41,635 nucleotides of DNA. Origin: an uncultured Eubacteriales bacterium (GTDB taxonomy: Bacteria > Bacillota > Clostridia > Christensenellales > CAG-138). This document shows positions 1 to 17,051 of this stretch, one piece after another. Position numbers and translations under genes: made by a program. Each line of letters opens with the position of its first letter. Position 1 is the first letter of the stretch. The notes below the pieces were generated by a model. That model was not told the DNA's origin, ran no database searches, and was given only the letters and a program-made list of their open reading frames with translations. Location: the NCBI GenBank assembly GCA_902765005.1, contig CACWYB010000012.1, positions 19,399 through 61,033 of the forward strand, given 5' to 3'.

Positions 1-1017
1 AATGAGTTCACGTACGTTGTTGATCACGCGAATCAGTACAAGACGATCACGAAGGAAGTCGGCAAGCTGAGCATTACGCCGGCGACGTTGACGATCACGG
101 CGGACAGCAACAGCAAGGTCTACGACGGCAAGGCTTTGACGGACAACGGATGGCAGGATACTGCGCCTGTGGGTCTGAAGGGCACGGATGCAGTCGAGAG
201 CGTGACGGTGACCGGTTCTCAGACGTTGGTTGGCGCTAGCGACAATATCGCAAGCGATGCTATTGTTAAGAACGGCGACGCAAACGTAACGGCGAACTAC
301 GAGATTACATATGTCAAGGGTACTCTCACAGTGACCGACGGCACACCTGAAGAGCCTGTTGAGCCTTCACTGGTGGTAACGAAGGCGGACAAGAACGCCG
401 GCACGATCTACCACGTAGGCGACACGGTGACGTTCACGATCACTGCGAAGAACATCTATGATAAAGCGCAGACGATCACGCTGAGCGAGATCGATGGCGT
501 GACGCTGGCTGAGAGCGAATTCAAGAACGTGGCAGGCGGTGATACGGTAACGACCACTGCGACGTATGTGATCAAAGTGGCAGACGTGACCGCAAAGAGC
601 TTCACGAACACAGTGACTGCCAAGATGGGCAACATCACGAAGACGGCAGACGCGACCGTGAAGACGGAGCAGGTTAAGATCACGATCACGGCTGATTCGG
701 ACAGCAAGGTGTACGACGGCACGGCGCTGACGAATGACAGCTGGAAGAAGACCGCAGGCGAGTTGGTGAATGGCGACACGATCGAGAGCGTGACGGTAAC
801 CGGCAGCCAGACTTTGGTTGGCAGCAGCGCGAACAAGGCGAGCGACGCGAAGATCGTGGATGCCGAAGGCAAGGATGTGACCGGTGGTTACACCATCACC
901 ACAAGGTCGTTACGAAGACTGACGGCGAGGAGAACGACGAGACCAAGTATCATGTTGGTGATACGGTCGAGTGGACGGTCTGGGTCAAGAACATCTATGA
1001 TGAAGAAAAGGCCCTGA
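1..1017 (+). CDS. Surface repeat protein, fragment A (5' end outside window)
   Basis: The frame is open from base 1, so the N-terminus lies to the left of the window. Fragment A carries an MBG-like beta domain (about bases 70-350; motifs SKVYDG, GSQTLVG, NYEITYVKGTLTV), then a DUF11-like domain (about 365-660; GDTVTFTI, AKNIYD), then a second MBG-like unit (about 680-900). The residues are rich in Thr, Val, Asp and Lys, as in secreted adhesin or stalk proteins of Gram-positive bacteria. Coding character is convincing only to about base 900. The last 39 codons are Arg/Ser-rich and match nothing in the other units, so they are an out-of-frame tail. The true reading continues in another frame from about 903. 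The function is probably structural on the cell surface, inferred from domain type only. Confidence 0.75.
   Translation, partial: NEFTYVVDHANQYKTITKEVGKLSITPATLTITADSNSKVYDGKALTDNGWQDTAPVGLKGTDAVESVTVTGSQTLVGASDNIASDAIVKNGDANVTANYEITYVKGTLTVTDGTPEEPVEPSLVVTKADKNAGTIYHVGDTVTFTITAKNIYDKAQTITLSEIDGVTLAESEFKNVAGGDTVTTTATYVIKVADVTAKSFTNTVTAKMGNITKTADATVKTEQVKITITADSDSKVYDGTALTNDSWKKTAGELVNGDTIESVTVTGSQTLVGSSANKASDAKIVDAEGKDVTGGYTITTRSLRRLTARRTTRPSIMLVIRSSGRSGSRTSMMKKRP
802..900 (+). repeat. 99-bp exact repeat, copy 1
   Basis: This is identical base for base to 1341-1439. It encodes the end of an MBG-like unit (GSQTLVGSSANK ... VTGGYTIT). The reading frame of the surface-protein gene breaks immediately after its last base. 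Confidence 0.95.
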
Positions 1018-1574
1018 CTGTGACCGAAGCGGAAGGCATGACCATCGTATCGGATGTGCCTGAAACGCTGAAGGCTGGCGAAGAGATCGAGATCAAGGTG
1101 CAGCACATTGTGACGGTTGCTGACATCGAGGCGGGCAAGATCACGAACAATGTCACCGTAAAGCTCGGCGATCTGGAGAAGCCCGGTACTGACGAAGTCG
1201 AGACCGAACCGATCGCGATTGAGATCACGGCAGCCAGCGACCAGAAGGTCTACGATGCTGAAGCGCTGACCAATGACGGCTATGAGCTGACTAAGGGCGA
1301 GCTTGCTGAAGGCAACAAGATCGATTCTGTGAAGGTTGAAGGCAGCCAGACTTTGGTTGGCAGCAGCGCGAACAAGGCGAGCGACGCGAAGATCGTGGAT
1401 GCCGAAGGCAAGGATGTGACCGGTGGTTACACCATCACCCTGACGATCCCAAGCCTGTCGACGATGACAAGGTCGTCAAGAAGGAGAGCGCTGAGGGCGT
1501 CGAGTACAAACTCGGAGACACCATTACCTGGACGATCACCGTTACGAACATCTACGATGAGAACAAGACGCTGA
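903..1574 (+). CDS. Surface repeat protein, fragment B (frame-shifted continuation)
   Basis: From base 903 this frame resumes the repeat pattern with KVVTKTDGEEN and then a DUF11-like domain (GDTVEWTV, VKNIYDEEKALTV, ITNNVTVKLGDLEK) to about 1205. A third MBG-like unit follows (about 1215-1439; QKVYDAEALTNDGY, GSQTLVGSS, VTGGYTIT). The first start codon in this frame is GTG 1020, but coding similarity to the other units begins well before it and no ribosome-binding site is seen. It is therefore a continuation of fragment A rather than a separate gene. The piece after 1439 again turns into Arg/Ser-rich nonsense. Both transitions shift the frame by the same amount (one base lost, modulo 3) and both fall at the end of an identical 99-bp repeat. 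Confidence 0.65.
   Translation, partial: KVVTKTDGEENDETKYHVGDTVEWTVWVKNIYDEEKALTVTEAEGMTIVSDVPETLKAGEEIEIKVQHIVTVADIEAGKITNNVTVKLGDLEKPGTDEVETEPIAIEITAASDQKVYDAEALTNDGYELTKGELAEGNKIDSVKVEGSQTLVGSSANKASDAKIVDAEGKDVTGGYTITLTIPSLSTMTRSSRRRALRASSTNSETPLPGRSPLRTSTMRTRR
1341..1439 (+). repeat. 99-bp exact repeat, copy 2
   Basis: This is identical to 802-900, at an offset of 539 bp, which is not a multiple of three. It encodes the same peptide in a different frame. The frame breaks again immediately downstream. After copy 1 the sequence ACAAGGTCGT follows at once; after copy 2 the same word appears 27 bp later, so the frame error is the same in both. Confidence 0.95.
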
Positions 1575-3538
1575 CCGTTACTGAGAAGGCGGGTGTCACC
1601 CTCGGCAACTACCCGACAACGTTGACGCCTGGCCAGACTGTCACGATCACGGCGACCCATGTGGTCACCGAGGCGGACATTCTCGCCGGTGAATACAAGA
1701 ACGAAGTTACGGCGAAGCTCGGCGACCTGGAGAAGCAGGGCGACGACACGGTGCCCACGGAAGAGAAGAACAGCCATCTGACCATCGTCAAGACGACGAC
1801 CTCTACGCCCACCAAGGCGGAAGGGTACATGCCGGATGAGACGATCACCTATCAGATCACTGTGACCAACGACGGCAACGTGACGATCACGGGCATCACC
1901 GTGACGGATGAACTGACCGGCGACGAGTGGCCCATCGACTCTCTGGTGCCCGGTGCAAGCTGGACCAACACAGCAGAGTACACGGTGACAGCCGAGGATG
2001 TGATTGCCGGTTCCGTCAGGAATGAAGCAACCGCTACCGGCGTCGATCCGGAGGGTGAGGAGCCCGATGTGGTGCCTGGTGTGAAGGAAGACCCGACCAC
2101 GCCTGGCGACGACAACACCGTCACGCCGCAGCCTGAGGATGACACCGAGACCATGAATGTGGCAGCCAGGAGCATCACCGCTAAGTACGACGGCAATGCC
2201 CATACGGTGACTGCTACGGCGAGCAAGGCCGGTTCCACCATCACCTACAGTGTGGACGGTGGTACGACCTGGACGGCAACGGCGCCCAGCCTGACGGATG
2301 TGGGCAGCGTGCAGTTCCTGGTGAAGGCCGAGAATCCTGCCTATGAGGATGCTATCTCTGCCGTGTACACCTTGGTTGTCACGCCGCGCGAAGTCGTCCT
2401 GACCAGCGCATCCGGTGCCAAGTACTTCGATGGCACGCCCATCCGGCGGAACAATCCGGCCACGCACGTCACCGTGTCTGGCGACGGCTTCGTCACAGGT
2501 GAAGGCGCCACCTATACCATCACCGGTGTGCAGACCGACATCGGTGCCAGCAATAACACGTTCACCTACGCGCTGAACGAGGGCACCAAGGCGGAGAACT
2601 ACACGATCACCCAGGTGCTTGGCCGGTTGATGATCATGCCTGAGGAAGTGCCTCTGGGTATCATCGGAAGCGTCTCCCTGCTCTTCACCTCCGACACGGA
2701 CCTGACGGCGGAAGGCAAGAAGGCGGATGCGTACAAGGATATGTACGCCTGGATCAAGGAGAACAACCCGAGACTGGGTGCTCTCGCCCTGATCGGCACC
2801 GGTAACGCGGTGGCGGATCGGAACGACGAGGAAGCCTGGAAGCTCATCAAGGATGAGCTGGATAAGCTGGAGCGGGCGCCTGGCTACCTGCCGTACTACA
2901 ACATCGCGGGCCGGAACGAAGTGAACGGCGACGAGCTGGATTACGAGTCCTACATCGCCCACAAGCTCTGCGAGGTCAACGAGTGGAACGAGTACGAGAA
3001 CGGCCAGATCTGGTACCAGCCCTTCAACGAGCAGCAGCTGCTGCTGGTGGGTATCGGCTACCAGAAGACGCTGGATCCCGACACGGCCACGGACGAGGAG
3101 CTGGAGGCTCAGGAGCGCTGGCTGCGGTACGTGAACAACGTGATCGCCCGGTATCCGGACTACACGGTGGTGCTGTTGGTGAACGACTTCATCGAGCACG
3201 ATCCTGACAGTCAGCGGGACGATGGCCGGCTGACCAAGTTCGGCGAGCTGCTGGAGAGCGAAATCGTGGCGGCGAACGAAAACGTGGCCCTGGTGCTGTG
3301 CGGCAACGCGGAAGGCACGGCCCGTTGGAACAAGACCTACGGTGAGCGCAACGTGAACGCGATCATGTACAACTACTCCAACGACGAGGAGAACGGTCTG
3401 GGCTTCTTCCGGATCGTGACCCTGAACGGCGAGGCCCGCACCATCACGGTGACGACCTACTCGCCCACGCTGGATAAGGACTCCTACGATGAGGACCATC
3501 CGGAGTACGACTTCTTCGTGATCGAGAACGCGTTCTAA
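1442..3538 (+). CDS. Surface repeat protein, fragment C, with degenerate metallophosphoesterase C-terminus
   Basis: The frame resumes at about 1442 (DDPKPVDDDKVVKK); the first start codon in frame is TTG 1622, with no SD, so this is a continuation. Domains in order: DUF11-like (to about 1770), a second DUF11-like domain with TYQITVTNDGNVTITGITV (1774-2150), two MBG-type units (KYDGNAHTVTA; ASGAKYFDGTPI) to about 2645, then a roughly 295-residue C-terminal domain (2650-3535). That last domain aligns along its length with the lipoprotein phosphoesterase at 15050-16150: SDTD for ADTQ, GTGNAV for HSGDVV, AGRNEV for SGNHDI, LLVNDF for AVLHAG, CGNAEGTA for CGHMRGTA, then GLGFFRIV and TTYSP. All recognisable metal-binding positions except the first Asp are changed, so it is probably catalytically dead. 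No LPXTG signal or C-terminal membrane segment is present. A terminator follows directly. Confidence 0.8.
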   Translation, partial: DDPKPVDDDKVVKKESAEGVEYKLGDTITWTITVTNIYDENKTLTVTEKAGVTLGNYPTTLTPGQTVTITATHVVTEADILAGEYKNEVTAKLGDLEKQGDDTVPTEEKNSHLTIVKTTTSTPTKAEGYMPDETITYQITVTNDGNVTITGITVTDELTGDEWPIDSLVPGASWTNTAEYTVTAEDVIAGSVRNEATATGVDPEGEEPDVVPGVKEDPTTPGDDNTVTPQPEDDTETMNVAARSITAKYDGNAHTVTATASKAGSTITYSVDGGTTWTATAPSLTDVGSVQFLVKAENPAYEDAISAVYTLVVTPREVVLTSASGAKYFDGTPIRRNNPATHVTVSGDGFVTGEGATYTITGVQTDIGASNNTFTYALNEGTKAENYTITQVLGRLMIMPEEVPLGIIGSVSLLFTSDTDLTAEGKKADAYKDMYAWIKENNPRLGALALIGTGNAVADRNDEEAWKLIKDELDKLERAPGYLPYYNIAGRNEVNGDELDYESYIAHKLCEVNEWNEYENGQIWYQPFNEQQLLLVGIGYQKTLDPDTATDEELEAQERWLRYVNNVIARYPDYTVVLLVNDFIEHDPDSQRDDGRLTKFGELLESEIVAANENVALVLCGNAEGTARWNKTYGERNVNAIMYNYSNDEENGLGFFRIVTLNGEARTITVTTYSPTLDKDSYDEDHPEYDFFVIENAF

Positions 3539-3641: not shown

Positions 3642-3670
3642 TTGCAATTTCATGGATGAGTCTTTATAAT
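3642..3670 (+). promoter_or_regulatory. Sigma-A promoter of the transglutaminase/pilus-like operon
   Basis: TTGCAA, a 17-bp spacer, then a perfect TATAAT at 3665-3670. The expected transcript start, near 3677, lies downstream of the ATG at 3669. That rules out this ATG as the start of the next gene and supports TTG 3723. Confidence 0.85.
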
Positions 3671-3722
3671 GAAAAACAGAAAAAACGTGTTCTTTCGGGA
3701 GAAACCTGGGAAAGGAGCACCC

Positions 3723-4820
3723 TTGCAGTTCTGTTGGAAGCGAAGCCTATCATTGGCCCTGTTCGGCGTGACGCTTCTGTTCGCCGCTGTTCCGCTCCCC
3801 CGAGCCGAAGCGGCGGTTCAGCCTGCTGAATCGGAGCTTGCCCGGGCCGCCTCCGTGGGGGCTCTGCCCCGCGGCGCAGCATCCTCCCGGCTGTTCGAAG
3901 CAAATCCTATGGCCCTGTCTGGCGCCCTTCGGTTGAATGATACCGATGAGCCGCCTCGGGAGCTCCCCCGTGAGACCCCTGAGCCGGAGGCCACGGAGGA
4001 AGAGCCCCCGGCCGATCCCTTCACGATCCTCGTTCCGGAGCATCCCGGCGAGCAGGAGAAGCGGAACGACAAGGTGGTCATCGACTATTCCCGCATAGCG
4101 GACGGCTATTTCATGGTCCAACGGATCGTGGAAACGGACCATCGCTTCAAGGTCCTGGTCAAGATCAAGGGCATCACCTACAACTACAACCTGGATTCCG
4201 GCGATTGGGCCGCCTTCCCTCTGTCTGAAGGGGATGGCTCCTATCAGGTTTCTATCCACGAGAATATCTATGGCACCAAGTACGCCAACGTGATCTCTGC
4301 CTCCTTCCAGGCCAAGATCACGGACCCTTTCGCGCCGTTTCTGCGGCCCAACCTCCATGTGAACTACCTGAACGCTCCTAAGACCATGACCAAGGGCGCA
4401 GAGCTTACGGAGGACTGTGAAGGACCGCTGCAGATCGTGGATTCCGTCTTCAGCTTCATCACGGAGAACATACACTACGACTACCTACTGGCTGCCACGG
4501 TGGAACCCGGGTATCTTCCGGATCTGGATCGGATCCTGTCTCGGAAGCGGGGCATCTGCTACGACTATTCCTCCCTCATGACGGCCATGCTCCGCAGCCA
4601 AAACGTGCCCTGCAAGCTGGTGTTCGGCTACGTGGGCAAGATCTACCACGCTTGGATCAGCGTTTGGGTGGAGGAGGAGGGCTGGGTCCAGGTGATCCAC
4701 TTTGATGGTAAGAGCTGGCAGCGCATGGACCCCACCTTCACGGCGGCGGGGACCAGCGATGACGCGGTCAAGAAATATATAGGCAACGGGAAAAACTATT
4801 CGGTGAAATTCTGTTTTTGA
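3723..4820 (+). CDS. Secreted transglutaminase-like (Cys-His-Asp) domain protein
   Basis: About 365 aa. The start chosen is TTG 3723, six bases after a strong SD (AAAGGAG). An upstream in-frame ATG at 3669 overlaps the -10 box and cannot be in the mRNA. The N-terminus is a signal peptide (WKRSLSLALFGVTLLFAA ... AEA), followed by a Pro/Glu-rich linker to about residue 110. The C-terminal half holds a transglutaminase-core domain with the triad Cys279 (RGICYDYSS), His309 (YHAWISVW) and Asp336 (RMDPTF). Members of this superfamily act as proteases, amidases or cross-linkers, and the substrate here is unknown. The stop codon is 11 nt before the GspF-like gene, so it is the first gene of that operon and its product probably acts outside the cell together with the pilus-like machine (inference). 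The family assignment is firm; the activity is not. Confidence 0.87.
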   Translation: MQFCWKRSLSLALFGVTLLFAAVPLPRAEAAVQPAESELARAASVGALPRGAASSRLFEANPMALSGALRLNDTDEPPRELPRETPEPEATEEEPPADPFTILVPEHPGEQEKRNDKVVIDYSRIADGYFMVQRIVETDHRFKVLVKIKGITYNYNLDSGDWAAFPLSEGDGSYQVSIHENIYGTKYANVISASFQAKITDPFAPFLRPNLHVNYLNAPKTMTKGAELTEDCEGPLQIVDSVFSFITENIHYDYLLAATVEPGYLPDLDRILSRKRGICYDYSSLMTAMLRSQNVPCKLVFGYVGKIYHAWISVWVEEEGWVQVIHFDGKSWQRMDPTFTAAGTSDDAVKKYIGNGKNYSVKFCF

Positions 4821-4831
4821 GAGGAAGCCTT

Positions 4832-5866
4832 ATGAAACAACTGTCCAACGATGAGATCAGCACCCTCTTTCGAGAGCTCGCCTATCTGATCCACGCCGGC
4901 ATGGGCCATGCGGACGCCCTGTCCATGATGGCGGAGGAAGCGGATCAGAACAAGGCGCTGCTTCAGCAGATGGCGACCGCCATCGACGACGGCGCCTCCC
5001 TGAGCGAGGCCTGCGGGGCCACCAAGCAGTTTCCGGCCTACGCCTCCAAACTCCTGCTGGTGGGGGAGCAGTCCGGCCGCACGGAGGAGACCCTCAACGC
5101 CCTGGCGGACAACTACGCCGGCCAGGCGCGGCTGAACCGGCAGCTGCGTACCAGCCTGCTGTATCCGGCCATCCTGCTGCTCATCATGCTGGTGGTCATC
5201 GTGGTGCTGCTGGTCTATGTGCTGCCCATCTTCGATCGGGTCTATGCCCAGTTCGGCGTGACCATGACGGGCGTTGCCGGGGGCCTGCTGTCCTTCGGCC
5301 GGATCATGAGCCGGAGCATGCCCGTGCTCTGCGGCCTGCTGGGGGTGGCGGTGCTGTTCTGCCTGCTGCTGGCGGTCTCCCAAAAGGTGCGCACGGGACT
5401 TTTGTCCTTCTGGCGTCGGAAGCGGGGCGACAAGGGCGTTTCCCGCCAGATCAACGACGCCCGCTTTGCCATGGCCCTGTCCATGGGCCTGCACAGCGGC
5501 ATGCCCATTGAGGAAGCGCTTTCCCTGGCCGGCCAGGTGCTGGAGGATGTGCCCTCCGCCAAGGGCCGGGTGGATAGCTGCATCGCTGCCGTGGAATCCG
5601 GCACCTCCCTTTCCAAAGCCTTGGAGGAGGCGGACCTGATGCCCAAGACCGAGTGCCAGCTTTTGGCGGCCGGCCTGCGCAGCGGCGTAGGCGATCTGGC
5701 CACCGAGCAGATCACCGCCCGCATGAGCGAGCGCAGCGAGCTGGCTATCAACGAGAAGATGAGCCGGGTGGAGCCTACTCTGGTCATCGTCACCTCCCTG
5801 CTGGTGGGCATGATCCTGCTGGCGGTTATGCTGCCCCTCATGAACATCATGGCTACCATTGGGTAA
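4832..5866 (+). CDS. PilC/GspF-type inner-membrane platform protein
   Basis: 344 aa, starting at ATG 4832 behind GAGGAAG. It has two GspF (T2SSF) repeats. The first has a soluble four-helix part (LFRELAYLIHAGMGHADAL, LLVGEQSGRTEETL) and then membrane segments around residues 112-140 (LLYPAILLLIMLVVIVVLL) and 165-185. The second repeat (ALSMGLHSGMPIEEALSLA) ends in a C-terminal membrane segment (VTSLLVGMILLAVMLPLMN). These proteins form the membrane platform on which the cytoplasmic ATPase of type IV pili, type II secretion and Com pseudopili acts. The length is typical of ComGB/PilC proteins. It is followed after 6 nt by the first of four pilin-like genes and, after those, by the ATPase gene, as expected for one machine. 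Confidence 0.92.
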   Translation: MKQLSNDEISTLFRELAYLIHAGMGHADALSMMAEEADQNKALLQQMATAIDDGASLSEACGATKQFPAYASKLLLVGEQSGRTEETLNALADNYAGQARLNRQLRTSLLYPAILLLIMLVVIVVLLVYVLPIFDRVYAQFGVTMTGVAGGLLSFGRIMSRSMPVLCGLLGVAVLFCLLLAVSQKVRTGLLSFWRRKRGDKGVSRQINDARFAMALSMGLHSGMPIEEALSLAGQVLEDVPSAKGRVDSCIAAVESGTSLSKALEEADLMPKTECQLLAAGLRSGVGDLATEQITARMSERSELAINEKMSRVEPTLVIVTSLLVGMILLAVMLPLMNIMATIG

Positions 5867-5872
5867 ACGGCC

Positions 5873-6193
5873 ATGAAGCGCAAACGCCTCACAAAAACCA
5901 TAGGTAGGCTGGTCCTTTGGACCGTTGTCCTTGTCGCCGCCTTTGCCTGGTTCTTCACCGGCATCCGCCAGGTGAGCCGGGAGCTGGCGGAGCAGGGGAA
6001 GATCAAGCTGGAGAATGCCATCCGCCGGTCCGCTGTGGCCTGCTACGCGGCGGAAGGGGCCTATCCGCCGGATGTGGACTATCTTATCGAGCATTACGGC
6101 CTGAGTGTGGATGAGTCCCGGTATATCGTCCATTACGACATCTTCGCGGAAAACCTCATGCCCGACATCACCGTTTTGGATAACGTGCAATGA
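5873..6193 (+). CDS. Small pilin-like membrane protein 1
   Basis: 106 aa. A basic N-terminus (MKRKRLTKTIG) precedes one hydrophobic helix (residues 12-30) and a small extracytoplasmic domain (KLENAIRRSAVACYAAEG, then YPPDVDYLIEHYGL). The topology and the pattern 'long helix, then A-I-R-R-S-A, then Y-P' resemble pilins and pseudopilins. The prepilin leader is atypical: Gly11 sits directly before the hydrophobic stretch, but there is no Phe+1 or Glu+5. I recognise no named family. Position between the GspF-like gene and the DUF4860 gene, with a 4-bp ATGA overlap to the latter, indicates a structural part of the same machine (inference). Confidence 0.75.
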   Translation: MKRKRLTKTIGRLVLWTVVLVAAFAWFFTGIRQVSRELAEQGKIKLENAIRRSAVACYAAEGAYPPDVDYLIEHYGLSVDESRYIVHYDIFAENLMPDITVLDNVQ

Positions 6194-6684
6194 ACGAGTC
6201 AAGATCATCCCAAAAACAGAATCTGAGCGGGCTCATGGTGCTGCTGCTGTTCGGCGTGTTCGCGGTGTGCATCCTGGCGGTGCTCCTGTCCGGCACCGGC
6301 ATCTACGACCGGCTCACCCGGCGGGACGCCCAGGCCTTCGATGCCCGTTCCGCCGCCCAGTATCTTTCTACCCGGGTCCACCAGGCGGAGGGGGCCGAGA
6401 GCCTTAGCCTGCGCCCCGGCCCGGAGGGAGGCCATATGCTCTGCATCACCCAATCCTATGGGTTCGACGCGTATGAAACCCTGCTCTACTGCCACGACGG
6501 CTGGCTCTGCGAGCTGTTCATGGAAGCCGGGGGAGAGATCGACCCGGAGGCGGGGGAGCGGATCCTGGAGGTGTCCAGCCTGGAGGGCGCCATGGAAAAG
6601 GGCCTGCTCACCCTGTCCATCACCGATAAAAACGGCCAGCAAACCATCCGCCTGCTGCTGCGGGGAGGGGAGGCGCATCCATGA
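6190..6684 (+). CDS. DUF4860-type pilin-like protein
   Basis: 164 aa. The N-terminus is MNESRSSQKQNLSG, then a hydrophobic helix (LMVLLLFGVFAVCILAVL) and a soluble domain of about 125 residues (ARSAAQYLSTRVHQAEG; HMLCITQSYGFDAYETLLYC). It fits DUF4860, a domain of unknown function found in clostridia. Like its neighbours it has Gly at the end of a polar leader and no Glu+5. It starts within the stop codon of the previous gene and ends with a 4-bp overlap to the next, so translation of the block is probably coupled. It is likely a minor pseudopilin. The domain name is from memory of the pattern and was not searched. Confidence 0.78.
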   Translation: MNESRSSQKQNLSGLMVLLLFGVFAVCILAVLLSGTGIYDRLTRRDAQAFDARSAAQYLSTRVHQAEGAESLSLRPGPEGGHMLCITQSYGFDAYETLLYCHDGWLCELFMEAGGEIDPEAGERILEVSSLEGAMEKGLLTLSITDKNGQQTIRLLLRGGEAHP

Positions 6685-7094
6685 ACCGAAGCAAAGCGCC
6701 TCTGGCCCTCATGGGTCAGCTGCTCATGGTCCTCTTTTTCGCCCTGACGGCGGCCATCTGTCTGCAGGCCTTCGCTAAGTCTGAAATCATCTCCCAGAAC
6801 AGCGCCGACCGGGACGCGGCGTCTCTACTGGCCCAAAACGCCGCCGAGACCATCAAGGCCCTCCATGGGGACCTGGAGGCCGCCAAAGCCGCTCTGAGCG
6901 GGGAGATCCAAGACGGCTGCCTGCTCCTGCAGGGAGATGCCAACGGCCGGTTCGCCCCGGATGGCGCCTACCATCTTAGAATCGAGCCACAGCCGGCGGA
7001 AAGGGGCCCGGGCAGGGCAATGATCATGGTGACAGATCAGGCGCAAAGGGAATGGTTTTCCCTGACCTGTTCCTGGCAGGAGGACATCCAATGA
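6681..7094 (+). CDS. Small pilin-like membrane protein 3
   Basis: 137 aa. The leader MNRSKAPLALMG is followed by a hydrophobic helix (QLLMVLFFALTAAICLQAF), a helical stretch rich in Ala/Asp (SADRDAASLLAQNAAETIKAL) and a beta-rich C-terminal part that ends in a Trp-rich tail (WFSLTCSWQEDIQ). No named family is recognised. The layout is that of a minor pseudopilin, again with Gly just before the helix and no Glu at +5. ATGA overlaps on both sides tie it to its neighbours. Confidence 0.75.
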   Translation: MNRSKAPLALMGQLLMVLFFALTAAICLQAFAKSEIISQNSADRDAASLLAQNAAETIKALHGDLEAAKAALSGEIQDGCLLLQGDANGRFAPDGAYHLRIEPQPAERGPGRAMIMVTDQAQREWFSLTCSWQEDIQ

Positions 7095-7495
7095 AAGAAG
7101 ATTTTTCCATTTCCACATTGGGCGGCACGTCCCTGATGATGATCTTCGCCGTGCTGTGCTTGACCGTGTTTGCGGTCCTGTCCCTGTCCACGGCCAAGGC
7201 GGGGGATCAGCTGTCCGCCAGCGCCCAGGAGGCCGTGCAGGCCTATTACGCCGCGGACAACGAGGCGGAGGAGATCCTCTGTGCCCTGCGCCGGGGGGAG
7301 TACCGGGCGGAAGTGGAGGCGGAGGGGGATGTGTATTCCTTCCGCTGCCCCATCAACGACCGTCTCAGCCTCTATGTTTCGGTAGAGCTACAGGGCGACA
7401 GCTACCGGGTGCTTCGGTGGCAGGCGTCCGTGGATGAAAGCATGATCGACGAGACCCAGGAGCTTTGGGATGGGGCGTTCCTGCCCGGCATGTAA
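7091..7495 (+). CDS. Small pilin-like membrane protein 4 (PilX/GspK-like N-terminus)
   Basis: 134 aa, starting at ATG 7091 in an ATGA overlap; a longer in-frame reading begins at 7052 but lacks an SD. The leader MKEDFSISTLGG precedes a hydrophobic helix (TSLMMIFAVLCLTVFAVLSL), then AVQAYYAADNEAEEILCALR. That segment resembles the FYAAEAGLEEA pattern of PilX/GspK-type minor pilins, which also lack Glu+5. A compact beta-rich C-terminal domain follows. The next gene, the ATPase, starts 15 nt after the stop. The role as a minor pilin is inferred. Confidence 0.75.
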   Translation: MKEDFSISTLGGTSLMMIFAVLCLTVFAVLSLSTAKAGDQLSASAQEAVQAYYAADNEAEEILCALRRGEYRAEVEAEGDVYSFRCPINDRLSLYVSVELQGDSYRVLRWQASVDESMIDETQELWDGAFLPGM

Positions 7496-7510
7496 GGAGG
7501 TTTGCAGCAT

Positions 7511-8566
7511 ATGGAACTCATCAGTTTTCTCACCACGGTCACCCAGCAGCGCGGCGCGGACCTGTTTATCATCGCCGGCGCGCCCTGCTGCATGCGAGTG
7601 GATAAAACCCTGCAGCCCCTGAGCGAAAGCAAGCTCCTGCCCAACGACACCGAGACCCTGGTGAGGGAGGTCTATCGCCTGGCCAACCGGGACATGGATA
7701 AATTCTATCAGACCTGGGACGACGATTTCTCCTTTGCCGTGCCGGGCCTGGCCCGCTTCCGGGTGAACACCTATCGGCAGCGCGGCTCCCTGGCGGCGGT
7801 CATCCGGGTGGTGTCATTCACCATCCCCGACTGGAAGGAGATGCATATCCTGCCCCAGATCATGGACCTGGCACGGCTGCGCAGCGGCATGGTCCTGGTC
7901 ACCGGCGCGGCGGACAGCGGCAAATCCACCACCTTGGCCTGCCTGGTGGACCAGATCAACAAGACCCGCTCCTGCCACATCATCACCCTGGAGGACCCCA
8001 TCGAATACCTCCATCGCGACCAGAAGAGCATCGTCAGCCAGCGGGAGATGACCATCGACACCGCCACCTTCCCCACGGCCCTGCGGGCCTGTCTGCGCCA
8101 GAGCCCGGACGTGATCCAGCTGGGGGAGATGCGGGACATGGAGACTATCCGGGCCGCCATGACCGCGGCGGAGACCGGTCATCTGCTGCTGACCACCCTG
8201 CACACCCGGGGCGCCGTCAGCACCATCGACCGCATCATCGACACTTTCCCCGCCGAGCAGCAGGAGCAGATCCGCATCCAGCTCTGCTCCGTGCTCCACA
8301 CGGTCATCTCCCAGCAGCTCCTGCCCAACAAACAGGGGAAACTGGTGCCGGCCTTTGAAATCATGCACATGAACAAGGCCATCGCTAGCCTGATTCGGGA
8401 TCGGAAGATTCACCAGATCGACAACACCATCGCCACCGCCGGGGCGGAGGGCATGATCTCCATGGACCAGTATATCCTCAACCTCTACCAGGCCGGCCAG
8501 ATCGACCGGGACACCGCCATCCGCTTCGCCCGCAACCAGGACCAGCTCCTGCGCAAGCTGGGCTGA
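7511..8566 (+). CDS. PilT-like type IV pilus ATPase
   Basis: 351 aa. ATG 7511 is preferred, 10 nt after AAGGAGG; TTG 7502 would abut the SD. An N-terminal PAS-like domain (RGADLFIIAGAPCCMRVD) precedes a RecA-like ATPase core: Walker A GAADSGKST at about residues 132-140 (usual GPTGSGKST), the Asp box TLEDPIEY, Walker B with DVIQLGEMRD at about 200-209, and the His box LLLTTLHTRGA. LGEMRD and the overall length fit the PilT/PilU retraction family better than PilB or GspE. It is the only pilus ATPase in the operon, last after the platform and four pilin-like genes, so it may power the whole machine (inference). Walker A deviates at the second to fourth positions but keeps GK[S/T]. Confidence 0.92.
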   Translation: MELISFLTTVTQQRGADLFIIAGAPCCMRVDKTLQPLSESKLLPNDTETLVREVYRLANRDMDKFYQTWDDDFSFAVPGLARFRVNTYRQRGSLAAVIRVVSFTIPDWKEMHILPQIMDLARLRSGMVLVTGAADSGKSTTLACLVDQINKTRSCHIITLEDPIEYLHRDQKSIVSQREMTIDTATFPTALRACLRQSPDVIQLGEMRDMETIRAAMTAAETGHLLLTTLHTRGAVSTIDRIIDTFPAEQQEQIRIQLCSVLHTVISQQLLPNKQGKLVPAFEIMHMNKAIASLIRDRKIHQIDNTIATAGAEGMISMDQYILNLYQAGQIDRDTAIRFARNQDQLLRKLG

Positions 8567-15049: not shown

Positions 15050-16150
15050 TTACCAGGCGTTTTCCAGAAGGAAATGGTTCTCCTCTTCTGTGGCGTGAGG
15101 GTACCCCCACTTGTCGAACCAGGGGGAGTAGGTCTCCACCTCGATGCTCCGGGTCGCCGGGTCGAAGCGCAGCAGCCGCATAAAGCCCAGGCCGTCCACC
15201 CGATCTTCCTGGAAGTTGAACATCATGGAGGTCACGGAGCGCTCCTTCTCTCCGTCGTTGTCGTCGTCAAACCAATCCACCCGGGTGGCGGTGCCCCGCA
15301 TGTGCCCGCAGACCATGAGCCGCAGCCCCGGCGCTTCCGGAGCCACCCGCTCCAAAATGGCCTTCATGGGGCCCTGAATGTCCCCACTTTCCTGGAGCCC
15401 GGCGTGGAGCACGGCGATCACCACATGATCCGGGTGCCGGGCGATGACCTGCCGCATCCAACCCGGGCAGGAGATGCCGAACCCGATGCCGAACACCAGA
15501 AAGTCCGTGCCCCCGGCCCGGAAGGTCACATAGCAGGCGTCTTCCTCCCCGTAGGTCTGCCCCTCCTTTCGGATCAGCTGGGCATAGGGGCTCTGCACAA
15601 AATACCAGTGGCTGCCGCTGCGGGGGATGTCGTGATTGCCGCTGACGATCATGCCTGGGAGCGCCTCAAAGAGGGGCACCAGGGCGGCTTCCGCATTGGC
15701 TTTCATGCCGGTGGTTTGGCCGTCCACCACATCCCCGGAGTGGATCACGAACTGGATATTCTCCTTTTCCCGGTTCTCCAAGATCCAGTCCCGCATGGAA
15801 AAGAACACCTCCGGGTTGTCCCGGGGCAGGTTCTGGGTGTCGGCCATCCACACGATGGTGAAGGGCGTCTCCGCGGGAACGGGCGCAGCGGTGGGCGCAG
15901 GGGTCAAGGCGGGGGAGGAGGTTGGCGCGGGGATGGCAGGGGCCGTGGCCCTGGGGGTCTGGGTTGGCGCCTGGGTGGGGGTGGGGGCAGCCGTTGCCGT
16001 CGGCGCGGCGCTGATGGGCGGCGCGCTGGTTTCCGGCGCCGCCGCGGCTCCCTCTCGGGCGCTGTGGCAGCCCCCCAGCAGGCATAGGAGCAGAAGAATG
16101 GGCAGGAGCTTCTTCACAAAACGCGACCTCGCAGTGAGATGATGATCCAT
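15050..16150 (-). CDS. Lipoprotein metallophosphoesterase (calcineurin-like)
   Basis: 366 aa from ATG 16150; GTG 16117 (KKLLPILLLLCLLGGC) is an alternative with GCGAGG upstream, and both give the same lipoprotein signal (lipobox LLGGC, Cys28). Residues 30-95 are an Ala/Pro/Thr linker. The catalytic domain from about 96 shows ADTQ (D-x-Q for the usual D-x-H), HSGDVVDG, VSGNHD, AVLHAG and CGHMRG. These are the calcineurin-like metal ligands, with the last His of GHxH replaced by Arg. It should be a surface-anchored phosphatase or phosphodiesterase; the substrate is unknown. The C-terminal domain of the surface protein at 2650-3535 is its close but ligand-less relative. Confidence 0.9.
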   Translation of the reverse strand: MDHHLTARSRFVKKLLPILLLLCLLGGCHSAREGAAAAPETSAPPISAAPTATAAPTPTQAPTQTPRATAPAIPAPTSSPALTPAPTAAPVPAETPFTIVWMADTQNLPRDNPEVFFSMRDWILENREKENIQFVIHSGDVVDGQTTGMKANAEAALVPLFEALPGMIVSGNHDIPRSGSHWYFVQSPYAQLIRKEGQTYGEEDACYVTFRAGGTDFLVFGIGFGISCPGWMRQVIARHPDHVVIAVLHAGLQESGDIQGPMKAILERVAPEAPGLRLMVCGHMRGTATRVDWFDDDNDGEKERSVTSMMFNFQEDRVDGLGFMRLLRFDPATRSIEVETYSPWFDKWGYPHATEEENHFLLENAW

Positions 16151-16483: not shown

Positions 16484-16539
16484 AGAATTGTTAATAGCAT
16501 GTTTACAGAAAAACCTGTGATGGCCCGGGCAGAAAATGG

Positions 16540-16545
16540 TATACT
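16540..16545 (+). promoter_or_regulatory. Extended -10 promoter of nrdR-pgeF
   Basis: TG-G-TATACT gives an extended -10; the -35 at the 17-bp distance is poor. The transcript would start near 16552, leaving room for GGGAGGG before ATG 16587. Confidence 0.6.
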
Positions 16546-16586
16546 TGTATATCACAAAAATACTGGGCCATGGGAGGGACAAGCCA

Positions 16587-17051
16587 ATGAAGTGTCGTTA
16601 CTGCGGCAGCATGGAGAGCAAGGTCATCGACAGCCGCCCCAACGAGGACAGCACCGCCATCCGTCGCCGCCGGGAGTGCATCCAGTGCGGGCGCCGGTTC
16701 ACCACCTTTGAGCGGATCGAGGAGAACCCCATCATGGTGGTCAAGCGGGACGGCCGCCGGGAGCTGTTTGAGCGGGAAAAGATCGCGACGGGCATCCGCA
16801 AGGCCTGCGAGAAGCGGCCCATTTCCACGGACGTGCAGAACCAGATGGTGGACAGGATCGTCCGGGAGGTGAACAACTCCCTGGATTCCGAGGTGTCCAC
16901 GGCGGCTCTGGGCGAGATGGTCATGAAGCAGCTCAAGCAGGTGGACGAGGTGGCCTATGTGCGCTTCGCCTCCGTGTACAAGGAGTTCAAGGACACCCAA
17001 ACCTTCATGGAGGAGCTCCAGCGGCTCCTGGACGAAAACGCCGGCGCATGA
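16587..17051 (+). CDS. nrdR: NrdR transcriptional repressor of ribonucleotide reductase
   Basis: 154 aa, the family's usual length. ATG 16587 is chosen for MKCRYCG and the SD GGGAGGG; an in-frame extension to 16536 lies in the promoter. The zinc ribbon (CRYCGSMESKVIDSRP; RRRRECIQCGRRFTTFE) is followed by an ATP-cone domain (VVKRDGRRELFEREKIATGI). NrdR senses ATP/dATP and represses nrd genes. Its stop overlaps the start of pgeF (ATGA). Confidence 0.97.
   Translation: MKCRYCGSMESKVIDSRPNEDSTAIRRRRECIQCGRRFTTFERIEENPIMVVKRDGRRELFEREKIATGIRKACEKRPISTDVQNQMVDRIVREVNNSLDSEVSTAALGEMVMKQLKQVDEVAYVRFASVYKEFKDTQTFMEELQRLLDENAGA

Follow-up and report, generated by a model that had tools for sequence, protein, structure and literature searches.

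The C-terminal domain of a secreted-looking repeat protein from an uncultured Eubacteriales bacterium belongs to the calcineurin-like phosphoesterase superfamily by end-to-end profile similarity, has lost all but one of its metal ligands, and is best read as representing a new pseudo-phosphoesterase family with a putative role as a binding module. It is a pseudoenzyme in the sense that its catalytic residues are lost while the domain is under purifying selection. The gene lies in a stretch of 41,635 nt, referred to here as the window, and unlabelled coordinates are those of the window. Family members that retain only the first ligand Asp are called dead below, and those with the full ligand set of the family are called intact.

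Stalk gene and relationship to phosphoesterases

A 732-codon open frame on the forward strand (1340-3538) terminates in the phosphoesterase-like domain (Table 1). The stalk part of this frame gave a DUF7507 match in Pfam (E 4.3e-27) and weak matches to DUF11 and MBG. Further upstream, the stalk gene changes frame at about 901 and about 1440 (from frame 1 to 3 to 2), both sites being outside the reported domain and directly after one of two copies of an exact 99-nt repeat (802-900 and 1341-1439). This repeat length is a common assembly k-mer size, and the frame shifts are probably assembly artefacts and not a real break. The protein's own N-terminus falls outside the window. The genome bin that carries it (2.38 Mb, 45 contigs) is 77% complete, and its close relatives are metagenome-assembled genomes, mostly titled Clostridia/Clostridiales, with several from the ruminant gut (omasum, reticulum, jejunum).

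Table 1. Features of the stalk gene, its terminal domain and the neighbouring paralogue (window coordinates).
Feature	Position	Strand	Remarks
More stalk repeats, same gene, other frames	1..1339	+	Two frame shifts, each after an exact 99-nt repeat (802-900, 1341-1439)
Repeat stalk ahead of the domain, same open frame	1340..2641	+	DUF7507; weak DUF11 and MBG matches; Pfam scan of 1622-3538
Calcineurin-like phosphoesterase domain without metal ligands	2642..3535	+	298 residues, residue 1 = codon 2642; C-terminal end of stalk protein; hhalign of dead against intact set
Asp18, first metal-ligand Asp	2693..2695	+	Kept in 19/19 dead domains; among the slowest of 293 sites
Asp20, Gln (DTQ) in intact relatives	2699..2701	+	Varies in dead group: Leu 8, Asn 4, Asp 2 of 19
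Asn55, replaces second Asp	2804..2806	+	Asn in 16/19 dead
Arg91-Asn92, replace Asn-His of GNHD	2912..2917	+	Vary freely in dead group
Acidic insert specific to dead group, TDEE-type motif	3068..3118	+	Residues 143-159; columns 143-144 and 152-159 filled in >80% of dead, <30% of intact
Asn181, replaces ligand His of VHS/LHA motif	3182..3184	+	Asn in 19/19 dead, His in 42/42 intact; one of the two slowest among 293 sites
Asn222, replaces first His of GHx	3305..3307	+	Asn in 14/19 dead
Stop codon of stalk gene	3536-3538	+	
Lipoprotein-like phosphoesterase paralogue	15050..16150	-	Keeps D, Q, D, N, H, H, H (DTQ, HSGD, GNHD, LH, GHMR); Pfam PF00149, E 3.7e-11

The first-pass annotation had aligned the last 295 or so residues with the lipoprotein phosphoesterase at 15050-16150, and this alignment is borne out by a search of the genome with the domain, which matched that protein at 36% identity over 135 residues (E 2e-14), and by a profile-profile comparison (hhalign) of 16 dead with 15 intact domains (probability 100, E 8.9e-65, 267 aligned columns). 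All of the motif pairs it named are present (SDTD/ADTQ, GTGNAV/HSGDVV, AGRNEV/SGNHDI, VND/LHA and GNAEGTA/GHMRGTA), as are the GLGF and TYSP landmarks. The genome search returned five places, the domain itself and four others. A closer intact paralogue is a lipoprotein-like protein on contig C10 (L002; 38% identity, E 9.2e-44), and two further matches were found at E 1.7e-12 and 1.2e-6. These E-values, together with that of the profile-profile comparison, rule out chance similarity to phosphoesterases.

A comparison with the Metallophos profile, which had been put forward as a check, went the other way, since PF00149 did not match the window's own domain even at E 1, and neither Pfam nor NCBIfam recognises a phosphoesterase in it; PF00149 does match 6 of 16 dead relatives (best E 3.1e-4). 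Against solved structures, the intact set matched metallophosphoesterases (best PDB 2dxl, E 4.6e-5), the dead set alone matched none at E <= 1, and pooling one intact row with 16 dead ones gave weak Mre11 matches only (E 0.058 and above). The entry text of 2dxl and 2zo9 says phosphohydrolase, and we take both to be the glycerophosphodiesterase GpdQ, which is then the best solved-structure match of the intact relatives. From this homology we infer a calcineurin-like fold for the window domain. The solved GpdQ reads GHNH, unlike the intact relatives, 22 of 42 of which read GHxD.

The canonical metallophosphoesterase motifs are DxH and GHxH, within a ligand motif list of DxH/Q, GD, GNH, H and GH. 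The 42 intact family domains read Asp, Gln, Asp, Asn, His, His, His, with one having Gln for the His of GNH, and just one of them has His at the second GHxH position. That His is kept in 9 of 29 intact rows of later loci, eight of the nine coming from outside the family. Relatives at class and order level (L121-L126, L103, L106) keep GHxH, and intact members of the window's family mostly read GHxD or GHxR. The intact family members, presumably active enzymes, thus appear to have a metal site already simplified in part and, since they are DxQ and rarely GHxH, the site seems to have been simplified stepwise before its complete loss. The description of the neighbour at 15050-16150 as the intact relative 12 kb away is correct in that it keeps the ligand set of its own family, but it is an atypical (DTQ, GHMR) and distant paralogue that sits in a different, more distant tree group than L002, the closer intact relative on another contig. 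An ORF adjoining it (16536-17051) is presumably an NrdR transcriptional regulator.

Ligand state and distribution

Ligand residues were read in loci L001-L054, L059 and L073-L092, where removal of 19 duplicates and one short piece from 81 HMM hits left 61 distinct domains. Nineteen are dead and 42 intact, and no half-dead state was found among the 61. The survival of only the first Asp, stated in the first-pass annotation for the window, holds in the alignment for all 19 dead domains, which therefore lack the ligand residues of an active metallophosphoesterase. The second Asp has become Asn in 16, Ser in two and Gly in one, and the His of GH has become Asn (14), Gly (2), Cys (2) or Ala (1), while the Asn and His of GNH are replaced by varied residues. 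It had also been noted that the ligands were lost without damage to the frame; this extends to all 19 distinct dead loci, in which the frame is open across the domain (L013 lacks the first residues at a contig edge), and frame damage is ruled out. Other residues that would restore a complete transition-metal site form no constant feature of the 19 dead domains, the exceptions being Asp at the Gln position in two (including the window), Glu at the Asn of GNH in one and Cys at the His of GH in two. Among 60 further loci from the matches listed, 57 have a full ligand set, and the remaining three, broken or running off a contig end, contain no substituted ligand. The 36 rows of later loci that were read comprise seven dead (re-fetches) and 29 intact domains (some also re-fetches).

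Of 103 genomes of the family, 64 gave some match, and the dead domain was read in 17 among the matches listed: four in the window's genus (G000, G039, G040, G045), one in a second genus (G006) and 12 in a third. The dead domains in these genomes answer the question, raised with the annotation, of whether the same domain occurs on surface proteins of related organisms. Within the window's genus it was read in 4 of 12 genomes among the matches listed, some of these genomes being incomplete. In samples of 396 order-level and 391 class-level genomes, the dead domains among the sequences read all came from the same family (seven genomes and one genome, respectively). One further copy (L059) comes from a bin labelled Chloroflexi in a named genome collection, which may be misbinned. 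The dead copies form the C-terminus of repeat-stalk frames or are cut by a contig edge (L013), and L014 ends a few residues later; stalks were judged by eye, apart from the window's and those run through Pfam. L023 has a single DUF11-like repeat with no visible signal peptide and may be truncated. A stalk protein in a genome placed in another genus (L006/L039 in G065) is 84% identical to that of the window in the dead domain, which reflects either misbinning or a recent transfer. In G074, the same stalk-domain region is present on two contigs (L051 and L052), apparently a duplicated contig end in the bin.

In a maximum-likelihood tree of the 61 domains, unrooted and with ten ligand-site columns removed, the dead domains occupy one side of a branch with support of 100/99 that is found in all 200 bootstrap trees. 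Ligand state changes once on this tree, compared with 16 times in shuffles. A single origin of the dead group is the simplest reading, and repeated independent loss is disfavoured by the tree without ligand columns and by the 60 further loci without a substituted ligand.

Constraint on the domain and its former pocket

Pairwise dN/dS was estimated for 12 dead domains, with ten intact pairs for comparison. Compared with one another (six pairs), the four closest dead domains (window, L055, L056, L058) gave values of 0.119-0.169, and pairs of these four with L061 gave 0.181-0.221. The least saturated pair, L067-L069, gave 0.285 and L064-L062 gave 0.310, while deeper dead pairs are near saturation and little informative (0.16-0.67, several undefined). 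The ten intact pairs range from 0.145 to 0.409, and from these ranges the constraint on the dead domain is comparable to that on intact ones. Recent decay of the domain is disfavoured by the same values.

The constraint is not spread evenly. In the dead group, conservation within two columns of the six former ligand columns averages 0.767 vs 0.661 elsewhere (circular-shift p 0.008), and an excess is also seen when the distance is widened to four columns (p 0.043). With only the six ligand columns counted it is not significant (p 0.19), and the excess therefore rests on flanking loop residues, many being Gly, Ala or Val with a possible structural role. Fixed or nearly fixed residues of the dead group include Asn181 and Asn212 (19/19), Lys142 (18/19) and Asp182 (17/19). 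Positions 18, 55, 181 and 222, which were chosen post hoc after the alignment had been seen, have a mean rate of 0.35 vs 1.01 overall (random-four p 0.0028), and the other former ligand positions (20, 91 and 92) have a mean rate of 1.22. The loop conservation and the invariant Asp18 and Asn181 suggest a kept or new binding site (putative), and the pattern fits a pocket that may still be doing something more than serving as a bare scaffold. The proposal that selection has acted on the fold and not on catalysis can be upheld to the extent that the metal site is lost and the domain is selected, with 19 dead domains in one group at low dN/dS, but 'fold only' is probably too weak a description of a domain with extra conservation in its old pocket loops and two residues invariant in 19/19.

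On balance, the somewhat more probable case is that the domain is a pseudo-phosphoesterase retained as a binding module, with no catalysis and with the old pocket as the site of binding. Its ancestor would have been a DTQ-type surface phosphoesterase domain, like that of the lipoprotein-like proteins still found in the same genomes. This ancestral domain would have been fused to the end of a repeat stalk that is secreted, with a single loss of the metal site, and retained for binding ever since. The floor of the old active site (Asp18, Asn55, Asn181 and Asn222 in the window) would most likely hold a ligand by hydrogen bonds, with no cutting, and the likeliest ligand would be a phosphate- or sugar-bearing polymer of the cell's own wall, of a neighbouring cell or of the gut content. 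The stalk would serve to space or present the ligand-binding domain. A more specific form is rather unlikely as it stands: that the metallophosphoesterase site was converted in place to a conserved all-oxygen pocket of one Asp and mostly three Asn, binding such a polymer, possibly via calcium, and that the enzyme has thereby become an adhesive head or wall anchor on a stalk of gut Clostridia. Several observations count against binding by the pocket. Asn is missing at position 55 in 3 of 19 dead domains and at 222 in five, His-to-Asn and Asp-to-Asn are mild substitutions, dN/dS is higher in the other dead pairs (L067-L069 and L064-L062), the deep pairs are near saturation, and the conservation excess at the ligand columns themselves is not significant.

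Cellular location and alternative roles

The N-terminus is readable in three stalk proteins, those of G006 (1191 residues), G072 (about 774) and G074 (2586), and in each a signal peptide-like start is followed by repeat modules, among them Cna_B, Flg_new and MBG, and by the dead domain at the end. Pfam found Cna_B, Flg_new, MBG and DUF7507/DUF11 among the five stalk proteins that were run. With a predicted signal peptide and repeat modules, these three would be secreted, adhesin-like repeat proteins. Sortase anchoring is not supported: a scan of 11 stalk frames, the majority truncated on their N-terminal side, turned up neither an LPxTG-like motif nor a second hydrophobic segment. A sortase match is present in 15 of 17 dead-bearing genomes, with none in G045 (97% complete) or G040 (90%). 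Anchoring by SLH domains is likewise not supported, as SLH occurs in 1 of the 17 genomes and in none of the five stalk proteins run through Pfam, most stalk N-termini being cut by contig ends. The first-pass annotation had placed the domain at the tip of a surface stalk. Its C-terminal position and the signal peptide-like start of three proteins agree with this, but the tip is not established, and the domain could be a distal tip, a wall-retention module or part of a released protein. Because an LPxTG motif or second hydrophobic segment was not found in the frames scanned, SLH is confined to one genome and sortase is absent from two, either the domain itself may retain the protein, or the protein may be released or held in some other way.

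These observations bear on an unlikely alternative, in which the domain serves structurally, as an end-cap or for retention in the wall: a folded body that stabilises the stalk end or, through its surface, keeps it in the wall, with the old pocket irrelevant. The missing anchor signals and the sortase-free genomes are in keeping with it, as are the non-significant conservation at the ligand columns alone and the hydrophobic C-terminus present in three out-of-family surface proteins with an intact domain (L103, L106 and L122; a fourth, L121, has none in the available part). Conservation of the pocket loops above that of the rest of the domain argues against it, as does copy number: general anchor modules are usually many per genome, and a single dead copy was read in 16 of the 17 genomes (two in G074) among the matches listed.

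Downstream of the stalk gene (3669-8566) lies a set of pilus-like genes with a transglutaminase at its head: the gene for a transglutaminase-like protein (PF01841) with a secretion-like start, a T2SSF gene that overlaps it, small ORFs (DUF4860 in one) and the gene for a T2SSE ATPase. G045, G039 and G065 likewise have the transglutaminase-T2SSF pair 3' of the stalk, as does G040, where a large ORF of 943 residues with a signal peptide-like start (L036, 2979-5807) separates the stalk gene from the transglutaminase gene. What lies 3' of the stalk in G006 (L037, 5844-9416) is a gene related to one that G045 and G039 carry on the far side of the transglutaminase-pilus genes, a pattern that insertion or loss of the latter, between it and the stalk gene, would produce. 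A functional link between the stalk and the transglutaminase and pilus-like genes was set aside, since a different gene follows the stalk in G006 and the transglutaminase ORF has a promoter-like site at its start. A hairpin is visible after the stalk gene but falls below the scanner's terminator rule.

An improbable alternative is that the domain is a regulatory pseudoenzyme, which would bind or shield the substrate or the body of the same cell's active phosphoesterase, by analogy with the degenerate LytM domains of EnvC and NlpD, through which amidases are controlled. Those domains are described in PMC5533458 as envelope domains of bacteria that have lost their Zn ligands and are kept for regulation. 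The dead domain resembles them as a bacterial envelope domain (putatively so here) without its metal ligands, and differs in fold and pathway and in that its regulated partner is only hypothetical (the LytM side of this comparison being taken from the same source). Partners would be at hand, in that a near-type intact paralogue was matched at E <= 2e-38 in at least 15 of the 17 dead-bearing genomes, with its ligands intact in 13 of those 15 (G069 and G056 left out). Against this, G006 and G062 have the dead domain with no near-type paralogue among the matches listed, and 47 of the 64 matching family genomes have no dead copy read among those matches. We also know of no physical link between the dead domain and an intact phosphoesterase.

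It is equally doubtful that the site was rebuilt, such that Asp18, Asn55, Asn181 and Asn222, together with nearby acids (Asp20 of the window and the acid two residues after 222), would form an all-oxygen Ca/Mg site for metal-dependent binding or a changed activity. Asn does replace ligands at three positions, one of them invariantly, 14 of 19 dead domains have Asp or Glu two residues past 222, and the median pI is 4.47 in dead vs 4.86 in intact domains. Neither 55 nor 222 is Asn in the deep members L020, L051 and L023, position 20 is Asp in two domains and Leu in eight, and the acid near 222 evolves slightly faster than average (rate 1.14), all of which speak against a rebuilt site. A decaying leftover of gene fusion with no present role, which the loss of all ligands but one and the patchy occurrence within the genus might suggest, is very improbable given the open frame at 19 distinct loci, the dN/dS of 0.12-0.31 in the closest pairs and the invariant residues.

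The preferred reading of a pseudo-phosphoesterase kept for binding has a parallel in VPS29, a retromer subunit described in PMC3101248 as having the fold of a metallophosphatase without being an active one, as serving instead as a rigid scaffold, and as still binding divalent metals with very low affinity. Like VPS29 as portrayed there, the window domain would be a non-catalytic phosphoesterase fold used for binding (putatively, in the window domain), but VPS29 is eukaryotic and intracellular, whereas the window domain is the terminal module of a predicted secreted bacterial stalk and has lost nearly all its ligands. Closer to home, the DTQ-type phosphoesterases of the same family (PF00149; 15050-16150 and L002), whose N-termini are lipoprotein-like by eye, share the domain from end to end, including the C-terminal landmarks GLG and TYSP; unlike them (Asp, Asp, Asn, His, His and His kept), the dead group keeps the first Asp only and has an acidic insert. 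Two order-level surface proteins, L103 and L106, also join a phosphoesterase of the broad family to other modules, lectin-like or Ig-like in their case, but there the ligands are intact and the domain is internal and followed by a hydrophobic end, whereas the dead domain is terminal and has no such end.

A search of the open-licence literature found no paper on inactive or stalk-linked phosphoesterase domains that describes one ending a bacterial stalk, which does not prove absence. Dead enzymes of the phosphoesterase fold and dead envelope metalloenzyme domains are already known, and a dead phosphoesterase at the end of a bacterial stalk is a variant on that theme. As an example of how a domain that was once an extracellular enzyme probably took on a non-enzymatic role it is a clean one, and since most of the genomes concerned also hold intact relatives, the steps leading from enzyme to putative binder can be compared directly. 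Little is known of how uncultured gut bacteria hold fibre, their hosts and each other, and the analysis adds to their surface proteins a domain that Pfam misses in the window's protein; if the preferred reading is true, this would be a family of binding domains.
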